From the NCBI GenBank assembly GCA_009869945.1, contig WIXG01000085.1:62001-126000 (forward strand): DNA of 64,000 nt, read 5' to 3'. Below, in pieces: positions 1-62,380 of the stretch; positions within the stretch are counted from its first letter, which is position 1, and each line of letters begins with the position of its first letter. A program made the position numbers and the translations under genes. The notes beneath the pieces are model-generated. The model searched no databases. It worked only from the letters and a program-made list of their open reading frames with translations, and had not been told where the DNA came from. The DNA is from Mesaphorura yosii (lineage: Eukaryota; Arthropoda; Collembola; Poduromorpha; Tullbergiidae).

Positions 1-2991
1 TAATGGGAGTCTATTCAGCTACGCAAAAGAGTTGCCAAAAGTTTTTGAATACGGGAAGGCAACTTTTCAAGGGTAATAAATTCATTCGGGCAACTCGCGA
101 GAAAGGAGAAACTTTCACGCTCAGACTCTTTTTATGGTCTTTTGCATCTCGGTGAAAGCCAAGACAGCAAAAAGTCAACAAAGTAGCGAGCTCGGCCACT
201 TGAGAGCGACGATGACGACGGGCGCGGGATTTATGTTTTGTAATTACTGCACGCGCCAGGCGCGAGTACGTGCAGCAATGGACCACAAATTACGACAATT
301 ATGTCACTTAATTTAGAATTACAAGGCGGCCCTACATGACCGTATGGAAATAACTCAGGTTCATTTCAACACGATTGCCTATAAAAGACCATCGCAGGCA
401 GCGCAGGCACGAGCGGCTTAGGCTTCCCAGAATTTATGATCACGGTCGTCATTGGTCGTGCATGGTCTTTAGGCTCATGAATTATGGACCATTTTGCCGC
501 TGCTGCTGGCCACTCGACAACGTCAACGTGCACGACGGACGATCGATTTTGCACGTCCCATCGACTTTAATGTCTCTCTCCATTTTCAGTCCCCAGTTTA
601 CAGAAATAAAGTTCCATCGAGTTCCGAGTCGTTTGAAACGGAGACGGAGACGAAATCGTCAGGCAGGAACGCATTAAATATTTAAAAAGGTCGGAAAAGG
701 GAAAAACAAAGGATCGATACTTTAAATTGCGATGCCGTACCGCAAACATTCCAATACTGCAATTTCAAATTCGAGTAATAACTCAATTAAATTGGTCGGA
801 TCGATTTCTGGTTGTAATTAAAGCTCCGGCGAGCGAAACCACACGCTACACGAAGCGGAGTTCGATCGAAGCAAACATCATGCATAATGAATTTGGGAGC
901 GATACGGCTTCGAGGAGACAAACGCCAAGCTAAAAAAAAAAGTCGAAGGCTGAAAGCAGTCGTAAAATAAAGTAAAGCAAACAACATGAATTATTATGGG
1001 AATGAGTTTCGCCGTTCGACTTTGGCCAGGTGAACTTTCTCCTACCAAGCCGCGATTCCGCCGCGATGGTTGTGTTTATTAACTTTCTCAAGTTGTTCTT
1101 CTCTCTCGTGGGACTCTTCTCCTTCGCTTGCACTCTGCCCACTTGTACACGACTCCTGCTGTAGTCGAGAATGCAGATGAGATCGCGAATGAGATGTTGA
1201 GTTGCGTTGAGACGCGATGGAGAAAAGTTGGAGTGCGTGGAAGGAAAAAGTAAATATGGGTTGAGGCAATGCAAATGATTGAATTACAGATGCGATGATC
1301 TCTGCCATCCACCAATTTGTATACACGCGCCCCGAGTTTTATTGAAAAGCGGTGCGGAGTAAAAAATGCGGACCATTTTGAACCCATCATTTTTCACGAT
1401 GATGCTCAAAATGATCAAAATACAACTGCTCTGTTGCTTGCGTTTGCAGTGGAAGTGAAGTGAGAGCCTCCTCGATTGAGATGCTTTACGGCAGGCAGGC
1501 AGTCATAACAATTTATCCGATTCCGAATCTCGAGTCTGTCTGGTCTGAGCTGAGCCATCATCTGCAGTACGCGCAGTAAAGTAGGAACAAGAAGACGTAA
1601 TGCTAAACGCTGAACGCAGTTCAATGAATCAAAAATATGCCGTTGACAAAAGAATCCTTTGGTGAGGCACTCTAAAAAGTATGAAATAATTTCTCTGAGC
1701 ATTTATCGAATGAATCGCAAAATCTAACCAAAGCTGCTAAATGGAACTTCAAGTTATCTAACTTTTTATTTTAGAGTTTTTAGTGATTTTAGAGATTCCC
1801 CTCATTTCCATGGCAAAACAGAGCCATTAAAGCGCGTTCAAGGATTCCCGATGCAAGCGTGTACAAATCGAAGCATACGATCCGCCCAACTTTAGACTCA
1901 TATCTCAAAATCCAGACACTCAATTTTCGTGATCTAAACTTCGCAGGAAGGGTCGAAAAATCGGAAAAATTCCAATAAAAACCTTCACTGAAAATAGTTA
2001 TTCGCGAAAAAAATGTTTTTTTTTTACCTTAAAAAGAGCGAAAGTGGGTCAAATATCGGTCAATTTGGAAATTTGAAAAAACTGTACAAGTCTACGTCAA
2101 AATACGCGACTTTTTTGTTTGTCATTTTTTCGATATCTAGCACCGTTTTCAAGATTCGCTTATTGACAGATTTTGGACATACCTAAAATGGGGGTAACCG
2201 CTTACCTTTAGTTAAGTTTGTGCCGTTGCCATCGTATGGCTTCTAACCAAAGGAAAACAGAGATTTTTCAACCCGGAGAAAGTTTTCAGCTTAAAAATGA
2301 CTTGAATGGCTCGAAGCTCCGATAATGAATGACTTTTCTTTAGTTTGCTTTTGACTCCTTCTTTCGCTGTCTCGTGTCTCGAATGCGAGAGATTTGCTGG
2401 CATATTTTTAATTGGCTGTAAACCAACAACGTTGAGCGCCTCCGTCTCAGCAATTTGAATAAGAGCACAAAGAGAAAATCTGCTCTGTGCAGTGAGAGCC
2501 GAGTCGAGTCGCGGTGAAAGCACTTTTGTCATATTATTGTGTTTATTTTTCATTTTGTTTTATTGCGTCTTGTACTCGTACGCGAGTCTTTTGCTCATGC
2601 AGCAGGACTGCAGCAGGCCATCAGAATCAGCATCGCAATGGTGGAAAGATGCTGCTCGAGCACGAGCGAGCCCAGCATCTGGCATCTGCATCCAATGCGA
2701 CAAGTTCTCATAACCCGATATGTCTCTTGTTCTGCCTGCCGTGCCGTCGTCCGTGGCTGTTCTTTTTAGCAGCGTTTCGCGTTTTTGGTCCATAACGCTT
2801 TATCGTGTACTGTTACGAGCCATGCCACGACCGGCTACGGTTTCACGCTGAGCAATGGCGAAGAGGTCCAAGATTAAGAGCCCCGTTTATGACGGGTCAT
2901 TGCCATGCCACGCCACACTTTAAACTAAAACCCCGTCTCTCGTCTCTGTCCGCGTCCGAGTAATTCGTGTATTTGTGTATTTGCACTGCAG
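1..2991. other. Gene-poor left flank, first exon of the SLC35F-like gene not located
   Basis: I see no convincing coding exon here. The open frames are short, start at non-ATG codons or lack splice signals and protein character. The SLC35F-like gene that begins at 2992 needs a further upstream exon ending in phase 2. A possible one is the ATG near 2854, whose frame reads MAKRSKIKSPVYDG before a weak GT, but I could not support it. The DNA is AT-rich with homopolymer runs around 2000-2200. Confidence 0.5.
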
Positions 2992-9535: not shown

Positions 9536-10090
9536 TCAGGTAACTGGAATCTGACGTGTCGCCGTTGGAAGGGCAGAATCGAGGATGGGGCTCGAGTACA
9601 GCTGTGTGTAGTGGCAGAGATATAGAAAGTCGTACAGCACGCAGAAGAAGTAAACTTGCGTCAGGAGCCCGCCGAAGAGCGGTGCCGTGAGAAACCAGTG
9701 CACGTTGAGGATCAGCAGCCCCACCACTCCACCCGCCGAGCCAAATATGTTGACTAGGCTCAGGCCAAGCCCAACACGGAGGAGAGTTACGTGCGAGCGC
9801 AGCGCTCCACATCCAAACACCAGACCGACGATACACATGGAGACTGTGAAGAAAAGGTAGGCATTGACAGCTTCGTCGAACTCCGCCTCAGAAATGCCAA
9901 CCGTCAAGGACTCGTTCTTGTCTGGCTCTGTCGTGATGTTGAAGTGGCTCAATAAGTGAGGCACGTCTCCAGTGATATGAAGCACGAGATATGCGGATAC
10001 CACGAGACCACTCGCTACGTCCCAGGCGCACACTGCCAGACAACGATGGAGTGGAGGCACTCGACACCTGCGCTCAGACTCGACTAACAT
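9536..10090 (-). CDS. Four-pass membrane protein, 184 aa, unknown function
   Basis: A single open exon starting at the ATG at 10090 (MLVESERRCRVPP). It has four hydrophobic segments: around CAWDVASGLVVSAYLVL, AYLFFTVSMCIVGLVFGCGAL, LSLVNIFGSAGGVVGLLIL and APLFGGLLTQVYFFCVLYDFL. The loop between the first two carries two possible N-glycosylation sites, NIT and NES. The frame is open upstream of this ATG to 10168 without another ATG. Size and topology resemble the other small four-pass gene in this window, but I see no clear sequence identity between them. Confidence 0.65.
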   Translation of the reverse strand: MLVESERRCRVPPLHRCLAVCAWDVASGLVVSAYLVLHITGDVPHLLSHFNITTEPDKNESLTVGISEAEFDEAVNAYLFFTVSMCIVGLVFGCGALRSHVTLLRVGLGLSLVNIFGSAGGVVGLLILNVHWFLTAPLFGGLLTQVYFFCVLYDFLYLCHYTQLYSSPILDSALPTATRQIPVT

Positions 10091-10320
10091 CGCCAGGCGG
10101 TTGAAAGACGAACACTGCGCATCGAAATTCAAGTGAAGAAGACACCTTTCAGACAAGTCCTTGAGCAATGAAAGAGATTTATGGAATTTTAATTGGTCAC
10201 GAAAAGGAATTGAATTGAATTAATCAAAATTACTCTCATCTGAGTACAAAAGAAGTTGAATTAATAAATGGTCATTTTATGCGTATATGAAGAGTACAGT
10301 ATTGGTGAATGTCGAAGAAA

Positions 10321-10380
10321 ATCGGTCAAGCAGCCAATCTTGCAGATTTTGTAGCCATTCGACGTCATAAAGCATACACC
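10321..10380 (-). promoter_or_regulatory. Possible SECIS element in the SelW 3' UTR
   Basis: A 3'-UTR SECIS is required for eukaryotic selenocysteine insertion. On the minus strand, about 75 bp after the stop, there is an ATGA (10365-10368). An AAAA follows about 14 bases later and a TGAC (about 10325-10328) about 36 bases after the ATGA, which is the usual spacing of the quartet and apical A motifs. Helix pairing by eye is weak, so this is only a candidate. Confidence 0.22.
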
Positions 10381-10442
10381 AGACACCAACAAATCATTCC
10401 GCGGAAGGCACTCGTAAATACTTTTTCGGATCAAGGTCAAAG

Positions 10443-10960
10443 TTAGCCCAGCATCTTTTGCAGAGCCTTCACAATCTTGGCCATCTTCTCGTCATCGTCG
10501 ACGAATCCATCTCCGTCCTACGCAATATGCAACTAGTTAGTTTTGATTCTTGTAATATTCTCAACACGCCCCCGAAAAGGAAGGACTCGTTCCATACCTC
10601 CTTGGAATGCAGGAGCAGCTCCTTGCCAGTCTCCGGGTCTTCGACGATCACCTTGAAGCACCCCGCACGCCCTTTCACCTTCTCTCCACTCTAAACAACC
10701 ACAAAGCACAAGGACATAAGATTCAGGAGCTATCGGCAAGGGACGAAATTTCCACTTACGATTTCGAGGCCAGGAAGCTGACGCTCGAGTTCCTTGCTCA
10801 GGCCCTCGAAGCGGCGGCGGTAGCTTCATCCACCACTAAAAGAGAAAATGGAAGAAATGAATGGTAGATTCAGGAGGTCCGAAGAAGCAAACAGGAGCAG
10901 TGGCACAGCCTAATAATGGACTTACCCATAAACTATCTGCACTTTCACTGTGCTTCCCAT
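10443..10960 (-). CDS. SELENOW: Selenoprotein W with in-frame TGA (Sec15), 92 aa
   Basis: Small thioredoxin-fold (Rdx family) redox protein of the cytosol. Four exons: 10926-10960, about 10756-10835, about 10598-10686 and 10443-10517. The reading MGSTVKVQIVY, then GGG, TGA (10826-10828), SYRRRFEGL aligns with vertebrate SelW, whose VYCGAUGYKPKY has Sec at exactly this place. Downstream, LPGLEI, then CFKVIVED, LLLHSKE and DGDGFVD keep the family order and spacing. The first Cys of the CxxU motif is Gly here, giving GxxU. The exon 2/3 junction is odd: the consensus-looking GTAAGT at 10759 would break the frame, while a GT four bases later joined to TTTAGAG|TGG restores it and matches the family length. 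Translation past the TGA needs a SECIS; see the separate candidate. Confidence 0.8.
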
Positions 10961-11400
10961 GACACTTCCTTGCTAACTTTAAGACTCAAGAGGCTACAAA
11001 ATAATGTTTAATGAATTAAATTGCACGGACAGATGAGGTCGACTTGCCACGACTTTGTTTCAAACCCCTCGATGCTGTCGGTACATTCGGTACTTTGACT
11101 TTGACTGATTCACAGCAAGATACTTTCCTTTGTGTGCTGCATTCAAATTTCCCATCACCACTCCGTTCAACTCGAACAAAGAAAACTGTGCCGGGCGCAA
11201 AAGAGCCCTGAAAACCATTCTTTCGAAAATTTGCAATGAAAGTACCAAGTAACTAAATATAACTCCTGCTGAAGCTGCTTTATTCCGGTCACGATTGAGC
11301 GGTTCATTCATTCGTGTAAGGGTGCAAGCTGTTGCACTTTTATTCACTTCATGGATATCAATAATTGGTAGAAGTGTGAAGCTTCAGATGTTTTTTCTTC
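10961..11400. other. Intergenic
   Basis: Promoter side of selenoprotein W and 3' side of the methyltransferase. No supported feature seen. Confidence 0.4.
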
Positions 11401-60100: not shown

Positions 60101-62380
60101 GACTCGGTCCAAGTCCATCCATCGCTCGTCTCCTGATTCTCTACGCTTCTGGTCGTCCACACATTCTTGTTCTTCTCTCATTTTCTTTCCACATCCACGT
60201 AATCTTGCATTATTTTGATACGCTTTGATTTGGATTCGATGAGAACCAGATTTGATTCATGGACCTGTTGGCCGCTGTTGCTGTTGTTGGTTTTACATTT
60301 TTTGCGGCAGACTTCAGCAGAGAATCTTGGCTGCATGCATTATACGAACCAGTGTAATGAAATTTTAATTTCTTCGAGTCGGAGGGGGGCTGACTTGAAT
60401 CGAAGTACATTAAAATACGACAAGATTTATTGCGACTTTTACTTTGCTTTTGCTTTTGCGTACCTTCGCTGCGCTCCTACTAGAGTCTTTAATCACTGGC
60501 TCCTGCTTCTGTTATCTGCGGCTGCGGCTCTTGGGTGAAGACTGAGCGCAGTCTCGGTGTGGTCCAAGTGCAAAGGCGAAGGACGCGAATGCGAGTCCGA
60601 TTATGATGATGATGATCCGGTTTAATTAATTAGCTCTCGTGTCTTTGTCTTTGCCTGTATTGTTTATTGTCTTTGTGCCACAGCCAATTTGTTCTTCGTC
60701 TTGTTGTTTTGCCGCTGGACCGGTGATTCGTGTCTTGAGTTTTGCACGACATTCTTGAAATGAGGCGAGGTTAATCTTATGAACTCACGTCAAGCCACAT
60801 TTAATTAAAGAAGAAGCCGTGATCTGCGAAATGGAATTAATGCAAATGGAAAAAACGTGTTACGTTTTACGTGTAGAAATTAATTAGCCATGAGAGACCG
60901 ACATGAGGAGACAAGAGACAAAAGGAACAAAAGGTGCAAAGATGTGAATTGTGAGACAAGATCAACTTTGCACTGCCTCGCGTCTCGCGTGGTTATGTAA
61001 ATGGAGTCAGCATCTGTTCATTCACATACACGACGAGAGGATTTGGTCTGGATTTCATTTTACGATCTTGATTGTTATTGTTGATTCATGATTCGGATTT
61101 CGCGTACAAGTGACAAGAGTTTTACGACCAAACGGCTGCTGCACTTCTGCGCTTGAATTTTACGACTTTCATTTCACATCTTCACTTTATTCAACGGCTT
61201 TGCACAGAAGTTAGACAAAAAGAAGAATTCAAATGCAAATACAACGATTTAATTCGAAGATTGACACCTTTGCTTACCGTTGTAATCATTTCCTATCACG
61301 GCACTCGTGAACATGTAAGCACGCGCAAGTTGGAGCGGTGAGGATACGGGACGGACGGATGCGGATCTGTTACACTATGAGAAGGAAAGACCAAAAGCAT
61401 AGAGCACAATACGAGAGAGTGTGCAAGTACGAATGGGATGCGATACAAGATTTATTAATCCAGAAGAGGACAATTGTTCCCACCCATCGCCATCGCCCAT
61501 TGCGAGCCAACCCTCCTCAGCCTCAGCATCTTTCTGTGCTGTACGCCTTTCTCTTACCGTCTTGCTTCTCGCATGATCACATCATAAATATGTCCACACA
61601 GCCTCTTAATTCCTAATCGGGCGGTTGCGCTCTGCGTGCGCATGTCGCGAAGGTGTGAAAAACGCACACTTAAATTAATTTATGGAAGACTCATGATTCA
61701 AAAAGCACAGATATTTTGAAATTCGGCCAGCCGAGATTATTGCCTTTTATTGTACCAATTTCATCGATTTCCGCATGCATAAGATGGATCTCGGCTCGGA
61801 GTCGCGTACCGTCGTGCCATTCTTGCCAGAAATTCGAATATTCGAAGGCCGATGTTGACTTGGCTGTTGTTTGACGGATGAAAGCCTGTAATTGAACCCA
61901 ATTACCATCAACTGACGGACGGGCGGACGGGACGGATACGTCTTGTCCACGTTGCGTTGTAAATATTTGTTGTGCCTTCAACAACCAATGCAACAATGAA
62001 TTTTTAAAACACGGCGAGGATATTACATAATTACGCTGCAGTCAGTGCCATTATCATAACATTGTTGTTCGACTGACAAGGCAAGGCGTAAGGCAATGTG
62101 ACGTTTGGCGTTTCGGTGCCTTACTGTTAATAGCTGCTAATTATACGTGTGCGGTTCCTCTGACTCTCGTCTCTGTTCTGTCGTTGCAGTCTCAAGCCAC
62201 CACCGAAGGACGGGCCGACCAAATCCAACCCCTCAAAGCGGCATCGGGAGCGACTCAACGGGGAACTCGACACGCTCGCGTCGCTGCTCCCGTTCGAGCA
62301 GAATATTCTGTCGAAACTGGACCGACTCTCCATTCTGCGGCTGGCTGTGAGCTATTTGAGGACAAAGAGCTACTTTCAAG
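57136..62380 (+). CDS. ss: Spineless/aryl hydrocarbon receptor homologue, first two coding exons (3' continues beyond window)
   Basis: bHLH-PAS transcription factor; in insects it specifies antenna, distal leg and photoreceptor identity. Exon 1 is 57136-57206, with ATGs at 57136 and 57151, and reads [18 protein letters not shown] from the second ATG. A normal GTAAGT donor starts an intron of 4983 bp. Exon 2, 62190-62380, encodes [20 protein letters not shown], then [19 protein letters not shown] and [20 protein letters not shown]. This is the complete DNA-binding basic region and helix-loop-helix, almost the same as fly Spineless. It ends phase 1 at a GTAAGA donor (SYFQ|), so the PAS domains lie beyond the window. 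The basic region [11 protein letters not shown], which reads GCGTG-type half sites, is intact. Confidence 0.93.
57207..62189 (+). other. First coding intron of the spineless/Ahr homologue
   Basis: 5-kb intron, about 50 times the usual intron here. No other coding exon supported. It is AT-rich with stretches of short tandem words; enhancers are likely but not shown. Confidence 0.7.

Follow-up and report, generated by a model that had tools for sequence, protein, structure and literature searches.

The gene on the minus strand at positions 10443-10960 of the window (the whole 64 kb stretch of DNA analysed here) is a genuine and intact selenoprotein W gene, the second SelW of its genome, and is referred to below as SelWb. 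Its product carries glycine in place of the first cysteine of the family motif, so that CxxU becomes GxxU. A paralogue with the canonical motif (SelWa), a candidate SECIS element behind each copy, a tRNA-Sec gene and exons of the SepSecS family were all found in the same genome. The account that we favour, with moderate confidence, is that SelWb is an intact paralogue which receives selenocysteine (Sec) by way of its SECIS element, which has lost the motif Cys and which would work through a single selenolate resolved externally.

Gene structure, family membership and fold

SelWb consists of four exons (Table 1) with GT-AG boundaries at all three introns, and its conceptual protein of 92 residues reads MGSTVKVQIVYGGGUSYRRRFEGLSKELERQLPGLEISGEKVKGRAGCFKVIVEDPETGKELLLHSKEDGDGFVDDDEKMAKIVKALQKMLG, where U is the in-frame TGA. 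The first-pass annotation had given this gene span, this TGA and the motif VYGGG-U-SYRRRF, and had claimed both that the frame depends on Sec and that the TGA lies at the Sec position of the family. All of this was borne out, the frame being open solely when the TGA is read as Sec (U15) and U15 falling at the aligned Sec position. Expression of the gene and insertion of Sec would be expected from the sequence. Other genes recognised by Pfam between 4708 and 39522 of the window encode an SLC35F protein, an MFS transporter, an amine-oxidase-like flavoprotein, a GAF-domain protein, an innexin, Roquin, a trypsin-like protease, a Pyr_redox_2 flavoprotein and a methyltransferase, and a short-chain dehydrogenase gene lies in the same interval. 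The innexin gene indicates an invertebrate animal; a telomere repeat of tardigrade type was absent, which has no weight either way.

Table 1. Positions of SelWb features in the window
Feature	Positions	Strand	Details
Exon 1, MGSTVKVQIVYG	10926-10960	minus	3' end TAT GG, donor GTAAGT
Exon 2	10760-10835	minus	starts T GGT GGA TGA AGC TAC; acceptor TTTTAG
In-frame TGA, selenocysteine U15	10826-10828	minus	family Sec position, by alignment
Possible downstream acceptor GAAG/CTACC	10823-10824	minus	in frame, Gly-Gly-Sec-Ser skipped; weak context
Exon 3	10598-10690	minus	
TGC codon of C48	10658-10660	minus	TGxFEV-like motif RAGCFKV; coordinates counted from exon 3 start
Exon 4	10443-10517	minus	TAA stop included
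SECIS element with flanks	10307-10382	minus	own scanner; leave-out covariance model

SelWb belongs to the SelW family on the evidence of its profile matches, its fold, the position of Sec and its SECIS element, and it lacks one usual feature, the motif Cys. The protein scored 41.1 bits against the Pfam family Rdx (PF10262, cut-off 22.6) and 56.0 bits against the NCBIfam model TIGR02174 (CXXU_selWTH, cut-off 34.2). The best sequence match in the PDB was mouse SelW (2NPB, E 5.1e-12); MIEN1/Rdx12 (2LJK) was a far weaker match (15.5 bits, E 0.14) and SelWb is therefore taken to be of the SelW1 type and not SelW2/MIEN1. An AF2 model built from the single sequence (pLDDT 74.2) predicts strands at residues 5-12, 35-42, 49-55 and 60-67 and helices at 17-31 and 77-91, and the best Foldseek match to this model was again 2NPB (TM 0.76, E 2.8e-6). 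U15 is placed between the first predicted strand and the first predicted helix, which is the position of Sec in the SelW/Rdx family.

A canonical paralogue in the same genome

When SelWb was searched by tblastn against its own genome (93 Mb in 1127 contigs) four matches were obtained, three of which were exons of SelWb itself and the fourth a weak match (E 0.63) on contig C211, in a search that took in only three first-look candidates and could therefore miss further weak SelW copies. The weak match belongs to a complete second SelW, SelWa, which begins MAKLKIHVVYCGAUGYGPRFQRLWKELE, has the canonical CGAU and is followed by a SECIS candidate of its own. The two proteins are identical at 40 of 90 residues by BLASTP (E 5e-27) and at 42 of 91 in a separate alignment, and the differing sites fall at first, second and third codon positions in 34, 21 and 46 cases over the 91 aligned codons, a coding pattern. 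Intron 1 interrupts the same codon in both genes (TAC TG/T in SelWa, TAT GG/T in SelWb). Both copies also have the same SECIS layout and a common loop (PETGK in SelWb, PDTGQ in SelWa) that is absent from mouse SelW. The presence of a canonical SelW with the same split-codon intron identifies SelWb as a paralogue. SelWa differs in having Cys in its motif and Trp at the position of C48 in SelWb. One further match to SelWb in the genome-contig collection (L039) was out of frame inside another open frame and is not SelW, and no relatives of SelWb were found in viral contigs.

The SECIS element

A check for a SECIS element in the 3' UTR had been called for in the first-pass annotation, and an element is present there, downstream of the stop on the minus strand. 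It is made up of an ATGA core (10368-10365), a helix II, an A-rich apical bulge, a mini-stem and a CGAT core ending at 10321. Its ATGA starts 74 nt past the stop codon, the equivalent distance in SelWa being 87 nt. The element was detected with a scanner that looks for ATGA, then AA after 10-14 nt, a GA core and a helix II whose apical loop contains AA. In the 294 nt 3' UTR of SelWb this gave one candidate, with a score of -12.4. After dinucleotide shuffling of the UTR some candidate was seen in 74 of 2000 sequences and an equally good one in 5 of 2000, a figure that is not blind since the spacing limits from ATGA to AA were fixed after the SelWb candidate had been inspected by eye. The minimum-energy structure of a 111-nt stretch covering the element includes a SECIS-like helix II, and this stretch is of ordinary stability overall (z -0.49).

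Over the whole window, both strands included, the scanner returned 10 candidates, of which that of SelWb ranked second. The better-scoring site, at 61878-61928 on the plus strand (-15.0), has no recognisable selenoprotein frame upstream and is absent from the six window matches of the covariance model described below, and is probably a chance hairpin. Used strictly, the scanner gave a top candidate in each of the genes for SelWa, SelS, SelT2, two glutathione peroxidases (GPx) and Sep15 (the last with a second, weak one). In SelK the candidate was the best of three on that strand, and in thioredoxin reductase (TrxR) no SECIS was detected, so that with SelWb counted a candidate was present in eight of the nine genes with a Sec codon. 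Two loci without a known Sec codon gave none (L037) and two (L038; -13.7 and -5.9). The stronger of these two, near position 712 on the plus strand of L038 (contig C36), scores above SelWb, is absent from the covariance model matches and sits downstream of exons matching a TrxR-type family model.

A covariance model (R1) was built from seven other SECIS candidates of the genome, with SelWb left out; its structure was drawn by hand on the GPx element of contig C141, and the elements used for training had been supplied by the scanner described above. When R1 was run over every position of the 64 kb its best match was the SelWb element, at 10382-10307 (23.2 bits, E 0.041), the next-best match in the window reaching 18.9 bits; within the 1.3 kb from 9900 to 11200 the same match had an E value of 0.00083. 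SelWb is a weaker match than the training elements, which score 40-57 bits by construction. On 14 further loci, some of them overlapping, the only strong match was the SelK element again (in L034), and the best among the remaining 13 loci was 15.0 bits. Rfam gave no match in 9900-11200 at E values up to 10 and no SECIS match at gathering scores in the whole window. Genome-wide, the Rfam model SECIS_1 has one match listed, in the SelS gene, with 133 of 1771 first-look candidates scored. This model is thus insensitive in this genome and its silence at SelWb is weak evidence.

Selenocysteine decoding and other selenoprotein genes

The capacity to decode UGA as Sec is represented in the genome by a tRNA-Sec gene (74.6 bits, the sole one above the cut-off among four matches), with the anticodon TCA according to ARAGORN, and by the SepSecS-family exons. 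Besides SelWb, eight genes were read as having an in-frame Sec codon, namely SelWa, SelT2, SelS, SelK, Sep15, the two GPx genes and TrxR, and SECIS candidates were found in all of these except TrxR (seven of eight). The Sec contexts are CSSU in SelT2 (by reading), GGUG-stop in SelS, GGGUG-stop in SelK, CGU in Sep15 and CUS in TrxR.

Several observations were made on these genes in passing. There are two SelT genes (L001 on contig C264; L002/L023 on C196), one with CSSU and the other, by reading, with CxxC, and in both an intron appears by reading to interrupt the first Cys codon, as it does in SelW. SelS (L007, about 1500-1720, minus strand, contig C322) apparently has GGUG-stop on a short last exon of its own, with a SECIS 139 nt further on; read without that exon, the preceding one runs into an ordinary TAA. 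Behind the Sec-GPx gene of C141 (L021) there are perhaps two SECIS elements in tandem: 1817-1890, a training element of R1 that scores 57.0 bits, and 1969-2043, not used in training, which reaches 33.0 bits with the same model. The scanner gave the first only. TrxR (L035, about 591-698, contig C7) ends in GRTDESEQCUS-stop, with Ser and not Gly after Sec. A doubtful SECIS candidate lies about 100 nt past its stop (20.6 bits with R1); the core of this candidate reads ATGG by eye.

The glycine at the first motif position

The codon for Gly12 is split by intron 1, exon 1 closing with TAT GG and exon 2 opening with T. The first-pass annotation had claimed that Gly replaces the first Cys, as is the case, and had raised the possibility of a different exon 1/2 junction that would restore a Cys codon. 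No donor that would give Cys was found between 13000 and 10820 on the minus strand with the patterns TA[TC]TG/GT and TG/GT[AG]AG, a scan confined to these two patterns and this interval. By reading, the next possible donor past exon 1 leads immediately to TAA. In the absence of the motif Cys an internal CxxU selenium-sulphur bond, between residues 12 and 15, is impossible in SelWb. As one species was sampled, the Gly codon may be a private allele.

Three other explanations of the missing Cys or of the Sec codon were weighed. The family's paired Cys is gone and a canonical copy remains for the job, which is what would be seen if SelWb were a decaying duplicate in which the Cys had been lost by drift. 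This is improbable given that four exons, all splice sites, the Sec codon, the stop and the SECIS element are intact at an identity of 42/91, indicating a long divergence, and that differences from SelWa are commonest at third codon positions. TGT and GGT are one base apart, and had the junction codon been misassembled or misread the true residue could be Cys. We consider such an error very unlikely: SelWb departs from the paralogue at further motif residues (GGGUSYRRR against CGAUGYGPR) and has a new Cys at position 48, although neither is direct evidence on the junction codon itself. It is equally hard to credit that the Sec codon is skipped through use of the in-frame acceptor 12 nt downstream of the main one, which would yield a Sec-free SelW reading VYG-YRRRF. 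This site is present and by reading keeps the frame, but the pyrimidine fraction before it is 0.53 against 0.93 at the main acceptor and there is an A at -3. The corresponding AG in SelWa shifts the frame by reading, meaning that the skipping acceptor is not conserved between the paralogues, and its use would leave the SECIS element without a function.

A possible mechanism and the role of C48

Under the account of an intact, Sec-containing paralogue, the UGA of SelWb would be decoded as Sec by the host machinery via the 3' UTR SECIS element. A change from TGT to GGT in the SelWb lineage, at the codon split between exon 1 and exon 2 (TG/T to GG/T), would have turned the first Cys of CxxU into Gly without loss of Sec, the fold, the introns or the SECIS element. 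SelWb would then most likely serve as a small reductase or peroxidase of thioredoxin fold whose one catalytic selenolate sits at the N-terminal end of helix 1. Without the motif Cys the simplest cycle would take the selenolate to an oxidised selenium, which glutathione or some other external thiol would resolve; such a single-selenol mechanism is plausible. A monothiol-type mechanism or a role as glutathione target had been suggested in the first-pass annotation. Human SELW made synthetically contained an S-Se bond in its CxxU motif, and glutathionylated SELW has been made and is also cited from rat muscle, the residue not being given in the passages available from that paper (PMC5364654). These passages make a glutathione route without the motif Cys thinkable.

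The only Cys or Sec residues of SelWb are U15 and C48, while those of SelWa are C11 and U14. C48 stands at the variable position of RAGCFKV, a motif resembling TGxFEV; the residue at this place is Trp in SelWa and Phe in mouse SelW. In thioredoxin folds the side just before strand 3 faces the active site. The AF2 model, at a pLDDT of 74, places C48 directly before the third predicted strand (49-55) and U15 in the loop between strand 1 and helix 1. It is conceivable, though we regard it as rather doubtful, that C48 replaces the lost Cys and that a U15-C48 selenenylsulphide would support chemistry like that of atypical two-Cys peroxiredoxins. The occurrence, beside U15, of a single Cys at a position where SelWa has Trp, and the placing of the two residues in the model, point in this direction; against this, the model derives from a single sequence at modest confidence, one species is represented and the arrangement was noticed after the fact. 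External resolution may accordingly be ranked first and a U15-C48 bond second. A little more speculative is a rewiring after duplication, in which replacement of the motif Cys by Gly and the gain of C48 in a selenium-facing loop would have turned a CxxU thioredoxin-like protein into a single-selenol enzyme of peroxiredoxin-like character, its resolving Cys displaced, that acts alongside the canonical SelW.

Comparison with known forms of SelW

A CxxU and a GxxU SelW in one genome, both with SECIS candidates, amount to a natural mutant series. Should the Gly form prove conserved and active, SelW would be able to do without its motif Cys, and selenol-based peroxide or glutathione chemistry would be favoured over exchange of the dithiol type.

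SelWb resembles mouse SelW (SELENOW, SelW1 type; 2NPB) in its fold, in the position of Sec and in the GDGxVD motif, and differs from it in having GxxU for CxxU, a longer PETGK loop and C48 in the TGxFEV-like motif. No GxxU SelW was met in the open-licence PMC literature searched, and the comparisons that follow draw on extracts of the papers cited. On this basis a GxxU SelW is a new form of a protein for which departures from plain CxxU are already known. Forms of SelW without exon 1 have been described (S. japonicum SelW2 isoform B, Lottia SelW1_a and Trichoplax SelW2; PMC3828610), and judging from the intron position they presumably lack the first half of the normal motif. These are cases of exon loss, whereas SelWb keeps exon 1 and has the Cys substituted. 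SelW proteins with two Sec residues are reported from amphioxus (PMC3473315) and O. lucimarinus (PMC2375036) and, like SelWb, depart from the usual SelW, but by an extra Sec, probably at the first motif position, rather than by a missing Cys. A pufferfish SelW2c has CxxR (PMC3316567). Sec without Cys at the first motif position, as in SelWb, is found in bacterial peroxiredoxins with TxxU and in radical SAM and TsoC selenoproteins with GxxU (PMC13188914); these are other families, and the SelW-like family is tabulated in the same source as CxxU.
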